Below, in pieces: positions 15,568 to 40,911 of a stretch of DNA of 43,751 bases. The first letter of the stretch is position 1. Each line of letters begins with the position of its first letter. The translations under genes were made by a program, and so were the position numbers. This DNA comes from Planosporangium flavigriseum (GTDB taxonomy: Bacteria; Actinomycetota; Actinomycetes; Mycobacteriales; Micromonosporaceae): assembly GCF_011947225.1 (NCBI RefSeq), contig NZ_JAATVW010000030.1, forward strand, positions 1 through 43,751, written 5' to 3'. The notes beneath the pieces are model-generated. The model ran no database searches, had not been told where the DNA came from, and worked only from the letters and a program-made list of their open reading frames with translations.

Positions 15568-15884
15568 CTCGACTCCTCGGGCTCGCTCCGCACGCTGTGC
15601 AGGACCTGGTACGTGTGCCGTTGCGCGGACTCGCGCAGGTCACGGATCACCCGCATCAGATCGTCGCGGTGCCCGCTGTGGCCGAAGGCGTCCAGCCGCT
15701 CGCGGTCCGCCCAGTCGCTGATTATCAGGTAGCTGCGCGGGTCGTCGGCGTCGCGGACCAGGTCCTGGCGCAGGCAGCCGTCCAGCGTGCGGATCTTCTC
15801 CGCCGCCGACAGCCACTCCGATTCGAACCGTTGCTCGCAGCCCTCCCTGGCGCGCATCGCGAGCACCGTGCGGACCCTCGTCAC
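15564..15884 (-). CDS. Small ABM-type monooxygenase
   Basis: A 106-residue protein of the antibiotic biosynthesis monooxygenase (ABM) ferredoxin-like fold, the family of cofactor-free anthrone oxygenases such as ActVA-Orf6 and TcmH. It reads VTRVRTVLAMRAREGCEQRF ... SYLIISDWADRERLDAF and is clearly a paralogue of the first domain of the neighbouring flavoprotein (RARPGCE, RDAGDGRSFVVVTEWAD). The GTG start at 15884 overlaps the flavoprotein stop (GTGA). It may oxidise an anthrone-like intermediate to a quinone; alternatively it acts as a non-catalytic helper. Confidence 0.85.
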   Translation of the reverse strand: MTRVRTVLAMRAREGCEQRFESEWLSAAEKIRTLDGCLRQDLVRDADDPRSYLIISDWADRERLDAFGHSGHRDDLMRVIRDLRESAQRHTYQVLHSVRSEPEESR

Positions 15885-18163
15885 TTCGCACCTCCGAACA
15901 CCAGCTGAAGGTTCTTGCGCAGCGCGTCGGCGTCGAGTGGCTGGCTTCGGAAACCGACATGCCCGTCCGGGCGGATCAGGTACAGGGCGGTGCCGGTGAC
16001 GCCGTAGGCGGCGCGGAACTCGCCCGCGGTGTCGCGTACAACGGGCGGGTTGAGCATCGCCGGCACGCTGGCGTCCGGGCTGGCCAACAGGTACGCGTCG
16101 AGCTCCCCGGACGCCAGCTCGCGGACCTCGGCGCACACCTTCTCCACCGCGGCCACCGCCGCCTCGTCGGCCGAGCCGTCCGCGTAGAGCAGCAGCGTGT
16201 GCCGCGTCCCGCAGGTCAGGTCACGCAGTCGCAGCGGATGTCCGACGCCCCGCCGGTGCAGGCCGCCAGCGTCGGGGGCGCGGTCGCCGGGCTTGGGGGC
16301 GTCGGCGGCCAGGGCATCGGGAGGGGAGACGGACTCGCCGACGAGCGGACTGTCCGAGTAGCTGAGCAGCATGGACATCTCCTGCAGGAACTGGCGCTTC
16401 AGGTCCTCGCGGTCCAGCTCGTCGGTGAAGGCCATCCGCACCGCACGCCCGACGATCTCCTCGCCTTCCGGGCGCCGTTCGGCCTCGTAGCTGTCGAGCA
16501 GCCCGGGCGCGGCGATTCCCCGTACTGCGAGGGCCAGCTTCCACGCCAGGTTCCAGGAATCCTGGATCCCGGTGTTCATGCCCTGGCCGCCCGCGGGTGG
16601 GTGCAGGTGCGCCGCGTCGCCGGCGACGAACACCCGGCCGTCGCGGTACCGGTCCACGATCCCGTGGCTGATCCGGAACACCGACGACCAGCGCAGGTTC
16701 GACGCGCGCGTGCCGGGCGGGGCCAGCTGGTCCAGCGCGGCCTGGACGTCGGCCAGGGTCGGTGCGGCGAGCTCCTCGCTGAACCCGGGCGGGGCCTCCG
16801 CCCCGCCGGTCTGCGCGAAGAACCTGGGCGGCGCCAGCGTCGCGATCCGGTACCGGGACTCACCGCGCAGCGGTACGCACACCAGCATGCCGTCCATCCG
16901 GCCGTCGGTGGAGTGCATGAACCGCAGCAGATGGCCCTCCGGCATGTCCCAGTCCACGTCCACGTCGCCGAGCATGAACAACTGCGGGAACCGGCCCAGC
17001 CCGCCAAGGAACGTCAATCCGAGCAGCTCGCGGACCTTGCTGTGCGCGCCGTCGCAGCCGACCAGGTACTTCGCGCGTACCGTCTCGCCGCCGCCGCCGG
17101 CCGCGCGCGCGAGCGTGGCCAGCACGCCGTCGTCGTCCTGGATGAACGTGACCAGCTCGACCCCTCGCTGCGGGCGCACGCCGAGCGTGGCCAGCCGCTC
17201 GGTGAGGATGCGCTCGGTCTCGTACTGGGGCAGGCCGAGGTGCGCGTACGGCAGCTCGGGCAGCTCCCAGCTCATCCGGTGGGTCTGGACACCGTTGACG
17301 AACACCATGTTGCCGGTCAGCCAGATCCCGGCATCCATGGCGTCCCGGACGATGCCCTGCTCCGCCCAGATCTCCATGGTGCGGCAGTGAATTCCGATCG
17401 CCTTGTCGGCCTGGCCGGGTGGGGTGGTCAGCTTCTCGATCACCCGGCACTCGATGCCGCGCCGGGCCAGCTCGACGGCGGCAGTCAGCCCGGTGGGCCC
17501 CGCGCCGACGATGAGTACATCCGTTGTCGTGTGCACGTCGATCTCCCTGCCCGTACTGGCTTCTCGTGTGGGATGGGTCGCGAGGTGGAAGAGGCGGCGC
17601 CGGAAGTCTGTGCGGAGGAAGGACGCGATCGGCCCGGCCTCCTCCTGCGCATGCGCCGGGTTGTCGATCCAGCGGAAGAACTCCGCTTCGCCGCGCCATT
17701 CGGCGAAGATGTGGAAGATGTCCGAACCGGGCTCGTGCAGCAGGTCCTCGCGCAGGTATCCAGGCACCCCGGCCATCCGTGCCTTGACCTCGGCGTATCC
17801 GCGTGTGAACGCCGCCAGCCTGGCGGCCGGCACGGTGACCGAGACCTCTACGAAGATCCCCGGTGCCTCGTCGCCCGGGTCGCGCATCACCCGGTAGCTG
17901 TCCGGTGCGGGTTCCTCGCACAGCGGACGAACGGCAGCGGCGAAGCGGGCGGCGACCGGCCCGATCTCGTAGTCGCGCAGTGCCGAGTCGTCGGCCCACT
18001 CGGTGACGACGACGAACGAGCGCCCGTCGCCCGCGTCGCGGAGCAGTTGCCGCAGGAGGTTGCCGGCCAGCTCGCCGATCTGCTCGGCGACCGCGCGCCA
18101 CGCGGACTCCACGGCGTGTTCGCACCCCGGGCGCGCGCGTAGCCGGCGCATCGTCCTGATCAC
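15881..18163 (-). CDS. ABM-ABM-FAD aromatic hydroxylase fusion
   Basis: A 760-residue three-part protein. Residues ~1-93 and ~102-197 are two ABM-fold domains. From ~212 there is a class A flavoprotein hydroxylase with VGAGPTG at 219-225, a YLVGCDGAHSKVR NADPH/FAD motif and VFVAGDAAHLHPPAGGQGMN near the FAD ribityl site. The last ~130 residues form the thioredoxin-like tail seen in PHBH/PgaE-type enzymes. It should hydroxylate the polyketide ring using FAD and NAD(P)H, like WhiE ORFVIII. I chose the GTG at 18163 because GGAG lies 5 nt upstream and the ABM domain begins there; an ATG 39 nt upstream is possible. The two fused ABM units are unusual. Confidence 0.9.
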   Translation of the reverse strand: MIRTMRRLRARPGCEHAVESAWRAVAEQIGELAGNLLRQLLRDAGDGRSFVVVTEWADDSALRDYEIGPVAARFAAAVRPLCEEPAPDSYRVMRDPGDEAPGIFVEVSVTVPAARLAAFTRGYAEVKARMAGVPGYLREDLLHEPGSDIFHIFAEWRGEAEFFRWIDNPAHAQEEAGPIASFLRTDFRRRLFHLATHPTREASTGREIDVHTTTDVLIVGAGPTGLTAAVELARRGIECRVIEKLTTPPGQADKAIGIHCRTMEIWAEQGIVRDAMDAGIWLTGNMVFVNGVQTHRMSWELPELPYAHLGLPQYETERILTERLATLGVRPQRGVELVTFIQDDDGVLATLARAAGGGGETVRAKYLVGCDGAHSKVRELLGLTFLGGLGRFPQLFMLGDVDVDWDMPEGHLLRFMHSTDGRMDGMLVCVPLRGESRYRIATLAPPRFFAQTGGAEAPPGFSEELAAPTLADVQAALDQLAPPGTRASNLRWSSVFRISHGIVDRYRDGRVFVAGDAAHLHPPAGGQGMNTGIQDSWNLAWKLALAVRGIAAPGLLDSYEAERRPEGEEIVGRAVRMAFTDELDREDLKRQFLQEMSMLLSYSDSPLVGESVSPPDALAADAPKPGDRAPDAGGLHRRGVGHPLRLRDLTCGTRHTLLLYADGSADEAAVAAVEKVCAEVRELASGELDAYLLASPDASVPAMLNPPVVRDTAGEFRAAYGVTGTALYLIRPDGHVGFRSQPLDADALRKNLQLVFGGAK

Positions 18164-18221
18164 GGCGTCTCCTCGGCCGGCTGCCCGCTGAGACGACCGC
18201 ATCCAGCGCCTCGACCCGTCA

Positions 18222-18887
18222 TCAGTCCGAGGCCCGCCAGCGGTAGAACTCCTTGGCCACCGCGTCCTGGTGGCTCTGCCACTGCGGGCTGTAGTGGCCG
18301 ACGAACGGGCTGAGGTCCGCCATGAGCTGGGCGAAGGCGGGCTTCTCGTGGCTTCGCGTCCGGGCCTCGACGGACGGCAGCGCGCTGTACTCCAACAGGT
18401 GCAGATAGACGTCGTCGAGCGAGTACAACCAACGCCCTCGGACGCCCATCTCGCCCGGCAGCGGCCCGGCGTCGGACTCGGCGAAGAGGCGTGCGATGTC
18501 CGGCTCGGCGCCGGGCCGGAGGCGCTGGACGATGACGGCTTCTTCCGTCACGGCCGATTCCGGCTCCGTGGCCGGAACCCAGCTGTAGAACTCCTTGGCG
18601 ACGGAGTCGGACGGGACCTTCCAGTCCTTCGGGTACGGCGTCACGTACGGCGCTATCTCTTCGGCGATCTGCTGGAACGCGGGCAATCCCCGGGGTCGCT
18701 CCAGCGTCTTCGGATCCACGTTGCGCTCGATCACGTGGATGTACAGGTCGTCCAGTGACAGCAGGGTGCGCCCGATCACGCCGAAATCCTGCGGTCGCGT
18801 CGCCCTGTCGTAACGGCCGAAGACTTCGGCGACCTTGTCCTCACTGCCCGGGACGATGTGACAGACGATCACGCTTCGGAAAGTCAT
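18222..18887 (-). CDS. Two-domain polyketide cyclase (tandem TcmI-like repeat)
   Basis: A 221-residue protein made of two copies of the TcmI-type cyclase fold (about residues 1-108 and 113-221). Both copies keep the family pattern: an N-terminal strand, RTLLSLDDLYIHVIE or RWLYSLDDVYLHLLE, then F.Q...(L/I).P(Y/F)V, and an ending AVAKEFYSW / AVAKEFYRW. It is a relative of the single-domain cyclase next door. ATG has a strong AAGGAG five nt upstream. Its likely job is later-ring cyclisation or chaperoning of the polyketide chain; SchA/CurD-like function is an alternative. Confidence 0.82.
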   Translation of the reverse strand: MTFRSVIVCHIVPGSEDKVAEVFGRYDRATRPQDFGVIGRTLLSLDDLYIHVIERNVDPKTLERPRGLPAFQQIAEEIAPYVTPYPKDWKVPSDSVAKEFYSWVPATEPESAVTEEAVIVQRLRPGAEPDIARLFAESDAGPLPGEMGVRGRWLYSLDDVYLHLLEYSALPSVEARTRSHEKPAFAQLMADLSPFVGHYSPQWQSHQDAVAKEFYRWRASD

Positions 18888-18965
18888 GGCTACTCCTTGG
18901 GTGGCTGCTCGCTACGGCTGGATCACGTTCCGTCGTGGTGCGTTGCTGAGCCTGCATTGACCGCT

Positions 18966-18982
18966 GATCCACGATGTGGATC
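18966..18982. repeat. Hairpin after the TcmI-like cyclase gene
   Basis: GATCCAC-GAT-GTGGATC forms a 7-bp stem with a 3-nt loop two nt beyond the cyclase stop codon, in the 97-nt gap before the two-domain cyclase. It may set mRNA stability or partial termination within the operon. Confidence 0.45.
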
Positions 18983-18984
18983 CC

Positions 18985-19305
18985 TCACGGCTCCCAGCGA
19001 TAGAACTCGGAAGCCATGGCGTCCGCGGGGCTGCGCCAGGTCGCGGGGTCATACGCCTCGATGTACGCCGCGAGCTCCGCATTGATCTGCTGGAACAGGG
19101 CGTCGTCCCGCACCCGCTCGACCGCCGGGCCTACCGGCCTGTCGGCCTCGATGAGATGCATGTAGAGATCGTGAAACCGGAACAGAGTGCGCGATCGGAC
19201 ACCGATGAGGTGGGGCAGCTCGGTGCGGTCGGAGCGGGCGAAGACGTCCGCGACGGCCTGCTCGGCATCGGGCTTCATCCGGGCGACGATCAGGGTTCGG
19301 TGCAT
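18985..19305 (-). CDS. TcmI-family polyketide cyclase
   Basis: A 106-residue single-domain cyclase closely matching the TcmI/WhiE ORFVII family: HRTLIVARMKPDAEQAVADVF, LPHLIGVRSRTLFRFHDLYMHLIEA and the ending AMASEFYRW. These enzymes close the later rings of aromatic polyketides. I used the ATG at 19305 (MHRTLIVARM), preceded by GAGGAA; an in-frame ATG 21 nt upstream lacks family support. It sits between the aromatase/cyclase and the two-domain cyclase, as part of the same operon. Confidence 0.9.
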   Translation of the reverse strand: MHRTLIVARMKPDAEQAVADVFARSDRTELPHLIGVRSRTLFRFHDLYMHLIEADRPVGPAVERVRDDALFQQINAELAAYIEAYDPATWRSPADAMASEFYRWEP

Positions 19306-19381
19306 CTGACTTCCTCTCATGCCCATCGCGATATCCCTGGGGCGCCGTCACGAAGGCCCCAGGGGACAGCGTTCATACCGA

Positions 19382-20108
<727 letters not shown>

Positions 20109-20143
20109 CGGGTAACTCCTTCACTTCAGGTAGGGAAATCTGA

Positions 20144-21400
20144 TCAGCCGGCATCCGGCGGGCGGCGCAGCACGAGGGCGGAGGCGAACCCTCCGAAACC
20201 GCGGGCGATGACCAGTACGTTCGAAAGCGGTAGCCGCCGCGGTTCACCGGTCACAAGGTCGATGTCCTCGTCGACGTCGGCCGGGATGACCGACGGGGTC
20301 GGTGGGAGCGCGCCGTCGCGGATCGCCAGCGCGGCGGTGACAACGTCCAGCGCGGCGCCGCCCGAGTACAGCCGCCCGACTCCCGCCTTCGGCGCGGTCA
20401 CCGGGGCCCGGGCCGCCCGCTCACCCAGCGCGATACGCAACGCCTCGACCTCGGCCCGGTCGGCCGCCCGGACACCGACCGCGTCGGCGACGACCGCGTC
20501 AATGTCCGAAGGGGACAGACCGGCGTCGGCGAGCGCGCCGCCGATGGCCGCGGCCAGCGCGGGCGCGGACGCGGCCCAACCGCCGGCGTCCGCCCGGTCA
20601 TCGGACGGCCCGGCGAAGGCCGTGGCGTAACCCGCTATCTCGGCGAGGACCGGGACACCCCGGTCCCGGGCGCTCGCCCACTCCTCGACGACCATCATCG
20701 CCCCACCCTCGCCCGGCACGTGCCCGGCGGCGTCGCGGGTGAAGGGCCGGTAGGCGCGTTCGGGATCGGCGCCGGTGAACAGGGTGCCGGCCGGTATCTG
20801 GCAGGTCAGCGCGTACGGGCCGATCGGCGCCTCGGTACCGCCGGTGAGCACGGCCCGGGTGCCGCGCCGGATCGCCCGCCGCGCGTGCCCGAGCGCGTCC
20901 AGCCCGCCCGCGCCCTCCGTGCAGATCACGCCGCACGGGCCGCGAAGCTGGTTGGCGATCGACAACTGACCGGTCGAGGCGGCGTAGAACCAGGCGATGG
21001 ACTGGTACGGGCCGACGAACGCGGGCCCCTTCGACCACAGTGCCTGGATCTCCCGCTGCCCGAAGAGGTTGCCGCCGGACGAGGCCGACGTGGTGACCCC
21101 GATCGAGAACCCCTCGTCGCCGGCGTCCGGTAACCCCGCCGCGGCGAGCGCCCGCGAAGCGGCGACCAGAGCGAAGTGCGTCCACCGGTCGGTCTGCGCG
21201 AGGATCCGCTGCTCCACGGCACCGCCCGCGTCGAAGTCGCGGACCTCGCCGGCCAGCCGGGCCGGGTACGCGGACGCGTCGAAATGCGTGATCGGGCCGA
21301 TCGCGCTGCGACCGGCCAGCGTCGCCGTCCAGTACTCCTCGGTGTCACCCCCGGTGGGCGCCACCACGCCGAGCCCGGTAAGAACGGCCCGCCGTGTCAT
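20144..21400 (-). CDS. Chain length factor (KS-beta)
   Basis: A 418-residue ketosynthase-like partner of KS-alpha, setting chain length. It aligns over its length with the neighbouring KS-alpha, but at the active-site cysteine position reads [12 protein letters not shown], so Gly163 stands where KS-alpha has Cys169 and where most CLFs have Gln (EQAGG). Other landmarks: [26 protein letters not shown] and the C-terminal [12 protein letters not shown]. The ATG overlaps the KS-alpha stop by 4 nt (ATGA), the usual coupling for the heterodimer. The Gln-to-Gly change may alter malonyl-ACP decarboxylation. Confidence 0.95.
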
Positions 21401-36684: not shown

Positions 36685-37023
36685 ATGGCAAGCGTTGAAG
36701 AGTGCCGTGCGGCGCTGGAGCACCTGACGCAGCGGATGGCGGCCAACGCGGATGCCGCCAAGGCGAAGCTCGACTTCGACCGCACATTGAGCTGCCAGAT
36801 TCCCGACCTGGGCGTCGCCTTCCGCGCTCGACTCAGCGGCGGTCAGATCCACGATGTCGAGGAGGGTGACGACCCGAAGGCGAAGCTGAAGCTGACGGCC
36901 GCGAGCGACGACCTGGTCGCGCTCGTACAGGGCAAGCTCAGTGCGGCGTCCGCGTGGGCCAGCGGCCGGATCAAGATTGATGCCAGCCTGATGGACATTA
37001 TGAAGCTGCGCAAGCTGCTGTAG
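36685..37023 (+). CDS. SCP2 sterol-carrier-like domain protein
   Basis: A 112-residue stand-alone SCP2 fold. The pattern FDRTLSCQIPDLGVAFRARLSGG, then AKLKLTAASDDLVALVQGKLSAASAWASGRIKIDAS and the ending MDIMKLRKLL is typical. Such domains bind lipids or acyl chains in a tunnel; the ligand is unknown. ATG follows GGGAG by 7 nt. It lies upstream of the nos genes on the same strand but with a ~200-nt gap, so it is probably a separate unit. Confidence 0.87.
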   Translation: MASVEECRAALEHLTQRMAANADAAKAKLDFDRTLSCQIPDLGVAFRARLSGGQIHDVEEGDDPKAKLKLTAASDDLVALVQGKLSAASAWASGRIKIDASLMDIMKLRKLL

Positions 37024-37226: not shown

Positions 37227-38525
37227 ATGAGCACACCTGGATACCGCGGACCTTCCGCCCCGACGTGGGACCCTACGGCGACCGTCGACCCAGCCGAAGC
37301 CGAAGAGTTCCTGTGCCTGCTCCATCAGGAACACCCGACCCTGGGCCCGGTAAGGCCGCGCCTGGATCAGGTCCGCCGGGAAATCGCCGAGTCCGGCACG
37401 TACGCACACACCTCGACAGAACTGACCTTCGGAGCCCGGACCGCGTGGCGCAACGCCAGCCGCTGCATCGGCCGCCTGTACTGGCGCAGCCTGCTGGTGC
37501 GCGACCTGCGCGGCGTACGTACCCCGAAAGCGGTCTTCGCCGAGCTGGTCCGCCACCTCGAGATCGCAGGTGGCAACCGCGGTGACGCACCTGGCAGCCG
37601 CCGCATCCGGCCGGTCATCTCCGTCTTCGCGCCGGCTCGGCCAGGTAGACCGCCGGAGACAAGGCTGTGGAACGAGCAGCTCATCCGCTACGCCGGCTAC
37701 CGCAACACCGACGGCTCGGTCGTCGGCGACCCGCGCTACGCGGAGTTCACGGAGGCGGTGACGGCGCTGGGCTGGCGCGGCAAGGGCAGCCGGTTCGACG
37801 TACTCCCGCTGGTCATCGAGTCGACCCTGCCCGGTCCGCGCCTGTTCGACCTACCCAGGCGGGTCCTCGTGGAGGTCCCGCTGACCCACCCGGAGTACCC
37901 GTGGTTCGCACGGCTCCGGCTGCGCTGGCACGCCGTCCCCGCCATCTCGAACATGCGCCTATCGATCGGCGGCGTCAGCTACCCGCTCGCACCGTTCAAC
38001 GGCTGGTACATGGGCACCGAGATCGGCGCCCGCAACCTCGCCGACCCCGACCGCTACGACCAGCTCCCCGTCGTCGCCGCCCGGCTCGGCCTGGACACCT
38101 CCAGCGAAACCACCCTGTGGAGGGACCGCGCCCTGGTCGAACTGAACCGGGCGGTGCTGTGGTCGTTCGAACGCGCCGGACTGCGCATCAGCGACCACCA
38201 CACCGAATCGCGCCGGTTCCTCGACCACCTCGCCAAGGAGGAGCGCGCCGGCCGCAAGACGCCCGCGGACTGGACCTGGATCGTGCCACCGCTATCGGGC
38301 GCAGCCACCCCGGTCTTCCACCGGTACTACCACGAGGCCGACCAGCGGCCGAACTTCTACCTCGACCAGGAGACCGCCGAGCTGGGCCGCTGCGGCCGGA
38401 CCGCAGCCGGAGCGCGACCGCAGGTCTGCCCGTTCATGGACGGGCGATCCTGCGCCACCGCGGGGCCAGTGGACCGGCTGGACCCGGAAACGTTCGACGG
38501 GTACGCCGGAGCGACGATCCAGTAG
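37227..38525 (+). CDS. nos: Nitric oxide synthase oxygenase, copy 1
   Basis: A 432-residue bacterial NOS oxygenase domain making NO and citrulline from arginine with heme and a pterin. The heme cysteine is Cys80 in [10 protein letters not shown]; the substrate site is in [16 protein letters not shown], with the Glu that binds the arginine guanidinium; PVFHRYY closes the heme pocket. There is no reductase domain, as is usual for bacterial NOS. After DQRPNFYLD the protein has a ~50-residue tail with three cysteines (RCGRT, VCPFM, RSCAT). I chose the ATG at 37227, which aligns with copy 2; a GTG at 37206 is possible. Confidence 0.93.
   Translation: MSTPGYRGPSAPTWDPTATVDPAEAEEFLCLLHQEHPTLGPVRPRLDQVRREIAESGTYAHTSTELTFGARTAWRNASRCIGRLYWRSLLVRDLRGVRTPKAVFAELVRHLEIAGGNRGDAPGSRRIRPVISVFAPARPGRPPETRLWNEQLIRYAGYRNTDGSVVGDPRYAEFTEAVTALGWRGKGSRFDVLPLVIESTLPGPRLFDLPRRVLVEVPLTHPEYPWFARLRLRWHAVPAISNMRLSIGGVSYPLAPFNGWYMGTEIGARNLADPDRYDQLPVVAARLGLDTSSETTLWRDRALVELNRAVLWSFERAGLRISDHHTESRRFLDHLAKEERAGRKTPADWTWIVPPLSGAATPVFHRYYHEADQRPNFYLDQETAELGRCGRTAAGARPQVCPFMDGRSCATAGPVDRLDPETFDGYAGATIQ
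37665..37787 (+). repeat. 123-bp identical tract shared by the two nos genes (copy 1)
   Basis: Exactly identical to 39054-39176, at the constant 1,389-bp offset between the genes, including all third codon positions. It is flanked by segments with many differences, as expected for a gene-conversion patch. Confidence 0.85.
37962..38390 (+). repeat. 429-bp identical tract shared by the two nos genes (copy 1)
   Basis: Exactly identical to 39351-39779. A single mismatch at 37961/39350 separates it from a further ~40 bp of identity upstream. Identity ends sharply at 38391/39780, where the two coding sequences become unrelated. Confidence 0.9.
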
Positions 38526-38535
38526 CCGGGTCACA

Positions 38536-38552
38536 TCGCACAGCGTGTGCGA
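38536..38552 (+). repeat. Short hairpin between the nos genes
   Basis: TCGCACA-GCG-TGTGCGA gives a 7-bp stem 10 nt after the stop of the first nos gene. It is too weak to be a certain terminator and could be a protein-binding dyad or an mRNA-stability element. Confidence 0.45.
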
Positions 38553-38615
38553 CACCCCCGCACTGCCTTCTGCGACCGTGCTCTCTCGATCAACCGAAAG
38601 TGGGGAGAGGCACGA

Positions 38616-39890
38616 GTGGGCATACCCGGATACCGCGACGAGCCTGCTCCAGCCTGGGATTCGCAGGCACTGGTCGATCCGTCCGAGGCCGAGGAGTTCC
38701 TGTGCCTGCTCCATGACGAGCACCCGGAACTCGGGCCGGTTCGTCACCGCCTGACCCAGGTACGCCAGGAGATCGCCGAATCGGGGACATACGTCCACAC
38801 CCCGGATGAGCTGACGTACGGTGCGCGGATTGCGTGGCGCAACGCCAGCCGCTGCATCGGCCGCCTGTACTGGCGCAGCCTGCTGGTGCGCGACCTGCGC
38901 GCGGTACGCACGCCGGAAGGCGTCTTCGCTGAGCTGGTCCGCCACCTCGAGGTCGCAGGTGGCAACCGCGGTGACGCCCCTGGCAGCCGCCGCATCCGAC
39001 CGGTCATCTCCGTCTTCGCGCCGGCGCACCCGGGCAAAATGCCGGCCGTACGACTGTGGAACGAGCAGCTCATCCGCTACGCCGGCTACCGCAACACCGA
39101 CGGCTCGGTCGTCGGCGACCCGCGCTACGCGGAGTTCACGGAGGCGGTGACGGCGCTGGGCTGGCGCGGCAAGGGCGAACGCTTCGACGTACTCCCGCTC
39201 GTGCTCGAGTCGCCGCTCGGCGGTCCGCGCCTGTTCGACCTGCCCGAGCACGCCATCGTCGAGGTGCCGCTGGCCCACCCGGAGTACCCGTGGTTCGCCG
39301 AACTGGGGCTGCGCTGGCACGCCGTCCCCGCCATCTCGAACATGCGCCTGTCGATCGGCGGCGTCAGCTACCCGCTCGCACCGTTCAACGGCTGGTACAT
39401 GGGCACCGAGATCGGCGCCCGCAACCTCGCCGACCCCGACCGCTACGACCAGCTCCCCGTCGTCGCCGCCCGGCTCGGCCTGGACACCTCCAGCGAAACC
39501 ACCCTGTGGAGGGACCGCGCCCTGGTCGAACTGAACCGGGCGGTGCTGTGGTCGTTCGAACGCGCCGGACTGCGCATCAGCGACCACCACACCGAATCGC
39601 GCCGGTTCCTCGACCACCTCGCCAAGGAGGAGCGCGCCGGCCGCAAGACGCCCGCGGACTGGACCTGGATCGTGCCACCGCTATCGGGCGCAGCCACCCC
39701 GGTCTTCCACCGGTACTACCACGAGGCCGACCAGCGGCCGAACTTCTACCTCGACCAGGAGACCGCCGAGCTGGGCCGCCGTGGCCGTCGCGACACGACT
39801 GCCGCTTCGCCTCCCGCCTGGCCCTTCCGGCAGCGGCCACCGGCATCCGATCAGCCGGAGTCCGCGGGCAGTCCGCATAGCCGTCTCTGA
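38616..39890 (+). CDS. nos: Nitric oxide synthase oxygenase, copy 2
   Basis: A 424-residue NOS oxygenase, aligned without gaps to copy 1 from the start to residue ~388. It keeps Cys80 in [10 protein letters not shown], the pterin/substrate region and PVFHRYY, so it should be active. The GTG start follows GGGGAGAGG by 5 nt. The last ~36 residues (after AELGR) are unrelated to copy 1, rich in Arg/Pro/Ser, and look like read-through of formerly non-coding DNA upstream of the alcohol dehydrogenase gene. Two tandem nos genes are unusual; the copies may be differently regulated or simply recent duplicates. Confidence 0.92.
39054..39176 (+). repeat. 123-bp identical tract (copy 2)
   Basis: The partner of 37665-37787. 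Confidence 0.85.
39351..39779 (+). repeat. 429-bp identical tract (copy 2)
   Basis: The partner of 37962-38390; its right end is the junction with the unrelated tail of copy 2. Confidence 0.9.
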
Positions 39891-39912: not shown

Positions 39913-40911
39913 ATGCGCGCCTGGCAGGTCCACCGCCCCGGCCCGATCGGGACCGGCCCGCTGCGGCTGGCCGACATCCCGGTTCCGTCCCCGGCGCCCG
40001 ACGAGTTGCTCGTGCAGGTGCACGCCTGCGGGGTGTGCCGGACCGACCTGCACATCGCCGAAGGTGACCTGCCCGTCCACAAGCCGGACGTGGTGCCCGG
40101 CCACGAGGTCGTCGGCACGGTCGCCGCGGTCGGCGACGCGGTACAGGGTTTCCTCATCGGCGATCGCGTCGGCATCGCCTGGCTGCGGCACACCGACGGC
40201 GTGTGCGCGTACTGCCAGCGCGGCGGGGAGAACCTCTGCCCCCAGTCGCGCTACACCGGCTGGGACGCAGACGGCGGGTACGCCGACTACGCGACGGTGC
40301 CGGCCGATTTCGCGTACCAGCTTCCCGAGGGGTACGAGAACACCGAACTCGCGCCGCTGCTGTGCGCCGGGATCATCGGGTACCGGGCACTGCTCCGCTC
40401 CGACCTGCCGCCCGACGGGCGGCTGGGCATCTACGGCTTCGGCGGGTCGGCGCACCTGGCCATGCAGGTGGCGCTCGCGCGGGGCGCCTCCGTGCACGTC
40501 CTGACGCGCTCGGTGGCGCACCAGGAGCTCGCCCTTGAACTTGGTGCCACGTCGGTGGGTGACGCCACGGAGGAGCCACCTGAGCGGCTCGACTCGGCCA
40601 TCCTGTTCGCGCCGGTCGGTGACCTGGTGCCCGTTGCGCTCGCCGCGCTGGACCGGGGTGGAACCCTCGCAATCGCCGGGATCCACCTCACCGACGTGCC
40701 GCCGCTGCACTACGAACGGCACCTGTTCTACGAGCGGACCCTGCGCAGCGTCACCGCCAACACCCGCGAGGACGCCCGGCAGTTCCTCGCGTTCGCGCAG
40801 GACCACCGGCTACACGTCCGGGTGAACCCCTACCCGTTCGACGACGCCGCGCTGGCCCTCGAAGACCTCGAGGCCGACCGGGTCAACGGCGCCGCCGTCA
40901 TCGTCATGTGA
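39913..40911 (+). CDS. Zinc-dependent alcohol dehydrogenase
   Basis: A 332-residue medium-chain dehydrogenase. The catalytic-zinc ligands are in CGVCRTDLH and GHEVVG; the structural zinc site is [12 protein letters not shown]; the NAD-binding motif is [16 protein letters not shown]. It is of the AdhA/propanol-preferring subgroup. The ATG at 39913 ([11 protein letters not shown]) matches the family start; a longer frame to 39781 runs inside the nos gene and is not credible. It follows the second nos gene after 22 nt on the same strand, so it could be cotranscribed. A link to NO chemistry (for example nitrosothiol reduction) is possible but it is not a class III (GSNO reductase) type by sequence. 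Confidence 0.92.

Follow-up and report, generated by a model that had tools for sequence, protein, structure and literature searches.

The NOS oxygenases of Bacillus (structures 2flq and 1m7v) belong to the same family, and have the same domain length, as the two nitric oxide synthase (NOS) proteins of Planosporangium flavigriseum analyzed here, and align to residues 24–382 of the first of them. The heme cysteine, the glutamate and the core motifs of the Bacillus enzymes are also present in both P. flavigriseum proteins. By contrast to Bacillus, the latter are encoded by two adjacent, apparently partly converted genes and carry longer, unlike C-terminal tails. In Micromonosporaceae such as Dactylosporangium roseum and Actinoplanes, nos genes occur singly, with about 64–83% protein identity among the matches listed; most of them have the palindrome described below and a Cys-Pro pair in the tail, and no other genome searched carries an adjacent full-length pair. 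TxtD, RufN, FlsN1 and Laj3 are reported to be NOSs encoded in natural-product clusters, where an actinobacterial NOS serves as a source of NO (PMC10831120). By contrast to such clusters, a ketosynthase and an aromatic hydroxylase are encoded here at a distance of 16 kb or more from nos. As for regulation, the NsrR site of Streptomyces coelicolor is described as two 11-bp repeats around one base, located before flavohaemoglobin genes (PMC4432287).

The window, 43,751 nucleotides long, comprises one entire contig of a draft assembly that totals 5.72 Mb in 85 contigs (99.14% complete, contamination estimate 0.58%). Genes nosA (37227–38525, ATG start, 432 aa) and nosB (38616–39890, GTG start, 424 aa), referred to as A and B, lie head to tail on the forward strand, separated by a 90-bp spacer. 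The initial annotation took both for full-length NOS oxygenase genes; in line with this, both frames are intact and match the Pfam family NO_synthase (PF02898, E = 1.1e-144 for A and 2.4e-146 for B), covering positions 8–360 and 7–360, respectively, of the 362 of the model. This is the only Pfam domain in each protein, and a fused reductase domain is absent from both. The direct neighbours are an SCP-2-like gene (36685–37023, forward strand, identified by Pfam) 5′ of nosA, a zinc alcohol dehydrogenase gene (39913–40911, forward strand) 3′ of nosB, and housekeeping genes. Further away, positions 15884–21400 encode a beta-ketoacyl synthase (ketosynthase) and a flavoprotein that resembles aromatic hydroxylases and has an ABM domain; this suggests a polyketide cluster located at least about 16 kb 5′ of the nos pair.

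Genomes were surveyed for NOS matches, which were found in 164 of 354 from the family, 55 of 394 from the class and 8 of 396 from the phylum, the present genome being counted in the class and phylum samples as well. The present genome was the only one with two adjacent full-length nos genes, so that the proposal that tandem nos genes are uncommon holds in every sample searched. In the family survey, where five candidates per genome were scored, 16 genomes had more than one NOS match; in those other than the present one, the matches were either separate loci, with 67 kb between the nearest two, or fragments of a single broken gene. The only other double match in the class and phylum samples (G791) consisted of two abutting pieces of one gene, and no second NOS match was found at 80 named loci whose flanks covered up to 6 kb in either direction. 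Several nos genes look broken or mis-sequenced, with overlapping or abutting pieces (L183, L190, L042/L045 and G791:C46). No description of a tandem bacterial nos pair was found among the matches listed in the open-access literature, which is weak evidence of novelty.

Over the first 388 codons, from the start codon at 37227 to position 38390, A and B differ at 119 of 1164 aligned bases with no indels; 1045 bases are thus identical, and so are 348 of the 388 residues. An alignment free of indels had been claimed for the whole pair; this stands up to 38390, and fails beyond it, where the C-terminal tails differ in length and sequence. Exact tracts of 429 bp (37962–38390 in A, 39351–39779 in B, with dS 0.01 in the surrounding segment) and 123 bp (37665–37787 in A, 39054–39176 in B), reported earlier at an offset of 1389, were reproduced, together with a third tract of 70 bp that contains the heme cysteine codon (37443–37512 in A, 38832–38901 in B); all are on the forward strand. 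Another stretch, 37542–37636, is near-identical, with three differences. Diverged segments of A on the same strand include the 5′ segment 37227–37442 (dS 1.18 to B) and the middle segment 37788–37917 (dS 0.44, dN 0.18 to B). In 10,000 shuffles of the aligned sites no identical run exceeded 113 bp, so that lengths of 123 bp and 429 bp were never reached. When only third positions were considered, the 429-bp tract corresponded to 143 identical positions in a row versus a shuffled maximum of 64; runs of 41 or more, equivalent to the 123-bp tract, occurred in 234 of 10,000 shuffles, and the 123-bp tract on its own is therefore modest evidence.

The alignment was partitioned, 133 codons falling in diverged segments and 252 in shared tracts. 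Synonymous differences between A and B amounted, in rounded numbers, to 54 at 106 sites in the former and 3 at 194 sites in the latter (Fisher p ~6e-26), corresponding to dS values of 0.85 and 0.02, respectively; silent divergence is thus patchy rather than even, as had been anticipated. The same contrast was weak when each gene was compared with the single nos gene of a congener, G002 (p 0.05 for A, 0.33 for B). Within the shared tracts A and B showed dS 0.57 and 0.56, respectively, to that gene, which indicates that the codons of these tracts are free to change. Gene conversion between duplicate bacterial genes is known, for example, for the tuf genes, and the pair described here is similar to the tuf type in that tracts almost free of silent divergence lie next to diverged flanks, here in NOS genes. 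Taken together, the silent divergence of 0.02 within the tracts versus 0.85 outside, and yet of 0.56–0.57 from the congener within them, bears out the conversion first put forward from the exact tracts: patchy gene conversion between old copies is well supported as the process that made the catalytic cores alike. Conversion is much younger than the copies and, as exact, near-exact and diverged stretches alternate, may have taken place more than once.

The history of the copies was analyzed with trees built from 57 rows, four of which were identical to others and were dropped to leave 53 sequences. In the tree of the diverged segments, A, B and the congener gene formed one clade (100/100). The order within it was less clear: A joined B with support 87/10, a tree placing A with the congener was 0.11 log units worse (AU p 0.49), and a tree constrained to join B and the congener was 6.0 log units better than the one the free search had found (AU p 0.64). 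The end branch of A (0.35) was about twice that of B (0.15), and outside the tracts B was nearer to the congener (dS 0.71) than to A (dS 0.85). In the tree of the shared tracts, A and B were almost one sequence (100/99). Hence, of the notion of conversion after duplication, the conversion stands, but a simple recent duplication is not supported: with several orders of A, B and the congener compatible with the tree, the age of the second copy is close to that of the species split, unless this copy derives from a close relative. Path lengths from the congener were 0.34 to B and 0.54 to A outside the tracts, and 0.18 to both inside; for another relative (L024) the distance fell from 0.69 outside to 0.35 inside. 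If the faster rate of A holds along the whole gene, these lengths lean towards B as a possible donor of the converted sequence.

The genus provides further evidence on the locus. In G002, the single nos gene is directly followed by the same alcohol dehydrogenase gene as nosB, and the DNA 5′ of nosB aligns with that 5′ of the G002 gene, starting just past the stop codon of A; nosB is thus the positional counterpart of the G002 gene. No NOS match was found in two of the three other genus genomes searched (G001 and G003), where the SCP-2-like gene adjoins the dehydrogenase gene across gaps of 108 and 92 bases, respectively. The stop region of A and the DNA before the dehydrogenase gene in these nos-less congeners are the same at 12 of 13 bases, a likeness that may be due to chance. 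It hints that G001 and G003 may have lost nos, gain in the other two genomes being the alternative. On the G002 contig with the SCP-2-like gene, the next gene is encoded by the minus strand; the G002 nos contig opens with a minus-strand open reading frame that is P-loop ATPase-like by eye; no second nos gene was found on either contig.

The 40 residue differences between A and B all lie at positions 2–231, and none in the long C-terminal tract. Active-site landmarks are the same in both proteins and include Cys80, Glu265 and Ile240 as well as Trp, Phe and Tyr residues; we take Cys80 to be the heme cysteine and Glu265 the substrate glutamate, and assign the other landmark roles on the same assumption. 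The C-terminal tails are distinct. The tail of A contains a Cys-Pro pair (38427–38432, forward strand) in the motif VCPF, whereas that of B contains Trp-Pro (39819–39824) in the motif AWPF, one residue further along; the matching of these codons depends on the alignment. Cys-Pro pairs act elsewhere as heme-regulatory motifs. Among the NOS proteins of the family, after exclusion of 7 of 94 rows devoid of the anchor motif, 67 of 87 carried the pair in tails that are otherwise very variable; in a set that includes other families it was present in 38 of 82 rows, a total that includes A and B. As 20 of the 87 relatives likewise have no Cys-Pro pair, B is not exceptional in this respect.

The upstream regions of the two genes also differ. 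A palindrome, TCGCACAGCGTGTGCGA, located at 38536–38552, 63 bp 5′ of nosB, constitutes a candidate operator that has no equivalent before nosA. Its pattern, TCGCACA-N3-TGTGCGA, has an exact match in the present genome only at this position. Sites with one mismatch are located before the flavohaemoglobin gene of the same genome, a feature thus shared by that gene and nosB and missing from nosA, and near an ECF sigma gene; with up to two mismatches allowed, the palindrome showed no enrichment in the present genome (22 sites versus 44 for the control). Upstream regions were scored for TCGCACA-N(1–8)-TGTGCGA with a threshold of 12 out of 14, B reaching 14 and A 10. The 94 distinct nos upstream regions of the family, a subset of the 164 nos genomes that includes the congener used to define the motif, reached the threshold in 72 cases and fell below it in 22, versus 1 of 470 shuffles. 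For flavohaemoglobin genes, taken from the 30 best-matching loci, the figures were 29 of 30 regions and 2 of 300 shuffles; in both sets common descent links the rows, a relation for which the shuffles make no correction. The exact palindrome occurred at 73 sites in 49 of 81 family genomes, versus 4 for the reversed control, with 32 of 81 having none, and at least 34 of these sites were within 250 bp upstream of flavohaemoglobin genes and at least 9 upstream of nos. That the palindrome is common to the nos and flavohaemoglobin genes of the family appears as a strong statistical result, and the genes behind it lead us to infer that it may respond to NO.

Genes around the other 30 exact sites were also inspected. 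Neighbours were read at 31 loci with a home-made choice of open reading frames, and six proteins were run in Pfam, among them one from each of the four groups named next. The neighbours included NIT-domain (nitrate/nitrite sensing) kinase-like proteins at five loci (L249, L250, L269, L277 and L278), MHYT-like proteins at three (L273, L274 and L277), glutaredoxin-like proteins at five and PNPOx-like proteins at three; for many of these sites the adjacent genes show no obvious link to NO. The palindrome also lies near ECF sigma genes at L243, L244, L246, L259, L275 and L279, with a glutaredoxin-like gene opposite in five of the six. Palindrome loci of the family further span L129, L191 and L200–L229 (nos or flavohaemoglobin). 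No description of an operator of the type TCGCACA-N3-TGTGCGA was found among the matches listed in the open-access literature. The NsrR regulon likewise has a palindromic site before flavohaemoglobin genes (PMC4432287); compared with the 11-1-11 arrangement given there for Streptomyces, the site found here is 7-3-7, has another core and also stands before nos, and it does not conform to an NsrR palindrome of that type. The present genome has five Rrf2 matches, of which two are strong, with no sign in the portion read of the three cluster cysteines expected of NsrR, and three are weak. Both the arrangement of the Streptomyces site and the cysteines missing from the portion read of the strong Rrf2 proteins make NsrR an unlikely reader of the palindrome.

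Several explanations for the pair and its tracts were weighed. Strong constraint on the catalytic core could in principle preserve identity with no conversion at all, and the active-site landmarks do fall in the tracts, but silent divergence from the congener in these very codons amounts to dS 0.56–0.57; refuted by these silent differences, constraint was ruled out as the source of identity and retains virtually no probability. An artefact of assembly, in which mixed strains or a wrong join in the draft yield the tandem or its exact tracts, might be feared in a draft of 85 contigs where a long exact tract could exceed short reads. Against this, the tail of A, the 90-bp spacer and the start of B are unlike the repeat and link the genes, both of which are internal to the contig, a one-base difference at 37961 is retained within a stretch of 473 bp, and contamination is estimated at 0.58%; such an artefact is very improbable. 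A different origin is conceivable for A, which might be no local duplicate but a nos gene from a close relative, placed beside the resident B and then partly overwritten by conversion. The closer relation of B to the congener outside the tracts, the longer branch of A, the better score of the tree joining B and the congener, and the upstream DNA of A, in which the operator of B is missing, all agree with this. On the other hand, A, B and the congener form a fully supported clade with no nearer source known, no alternative order is rejected by the AU test (p 0.64 and 0.49), and the stop region of A resembles the DNA before the dehydrogenase gene in nos-less congeners, as in a local copy. We regard arrival of A from outside as possible, if on the unlikely side.

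The reading we prefer, with a probability of about 0.6, is that P. flavigriseum has two working NO synthases, nosB belonging to a putative NO regulon and nosA standing outside it, so that their control would have parted and their chemistry would not. Both proteins would produce NO with the same active site; nosB would be controlled, through the palindromic operator, together with an NO-removing flavohaemoglobin, whereas nosA, which has no palindrome but has the Cys-Pro tail pair, would remain outside the regulon, conversion holding the two catalytic cores alike while control differs. Alternatively, the copies could be redundant, the second gene reflecting dosage or drift and the differences in operator and tail being of no consequence. 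The identical active-site landmarks would fit this, as would the dispensability of nos in the genus, where two of three other genomes searched have no match; but the palindrome that A is missing is widespread in the family, and both frames are intact despite dS 0.85 outside the tracts, so that both copies seem to have been long kept. Redundancy is accordingly doubtful, and the differences in operator and tail would favour different control over mere dosage. Scans for promoters and terminators in the pair found nothing, including no terminator-like site in the 90-bp spacer; with so short a spacer free of such a site, the promoter of A may also drive B. A more elaborate version of two working synthases, which is speculative and improbable in its entirety, would be a two-gene circuit: nosA would supply basal NO, which through a regulator at the palindrome would switch nosB and flavohaemoglobin jointly to give a self-limited pulse, as part of a family NO regulon with a non-NsrR site that would comprise nos and flavohaemoglobin genes and would extend, in some genomes, to NIT-domain kinases and MHYT proteins.

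The novelty here lies in the differences of operator and tail between A and B. The purpose of bacterial NO, and the timing of its production, are open questions, for which the pair offers a natural comparison: within one cell, a near-identical catalytic core is placed under what appear to be two different modes of control. The common palindrome makes the joint regulation of NO synthesis and removal, and the regulator responsible, directly testable in the family.
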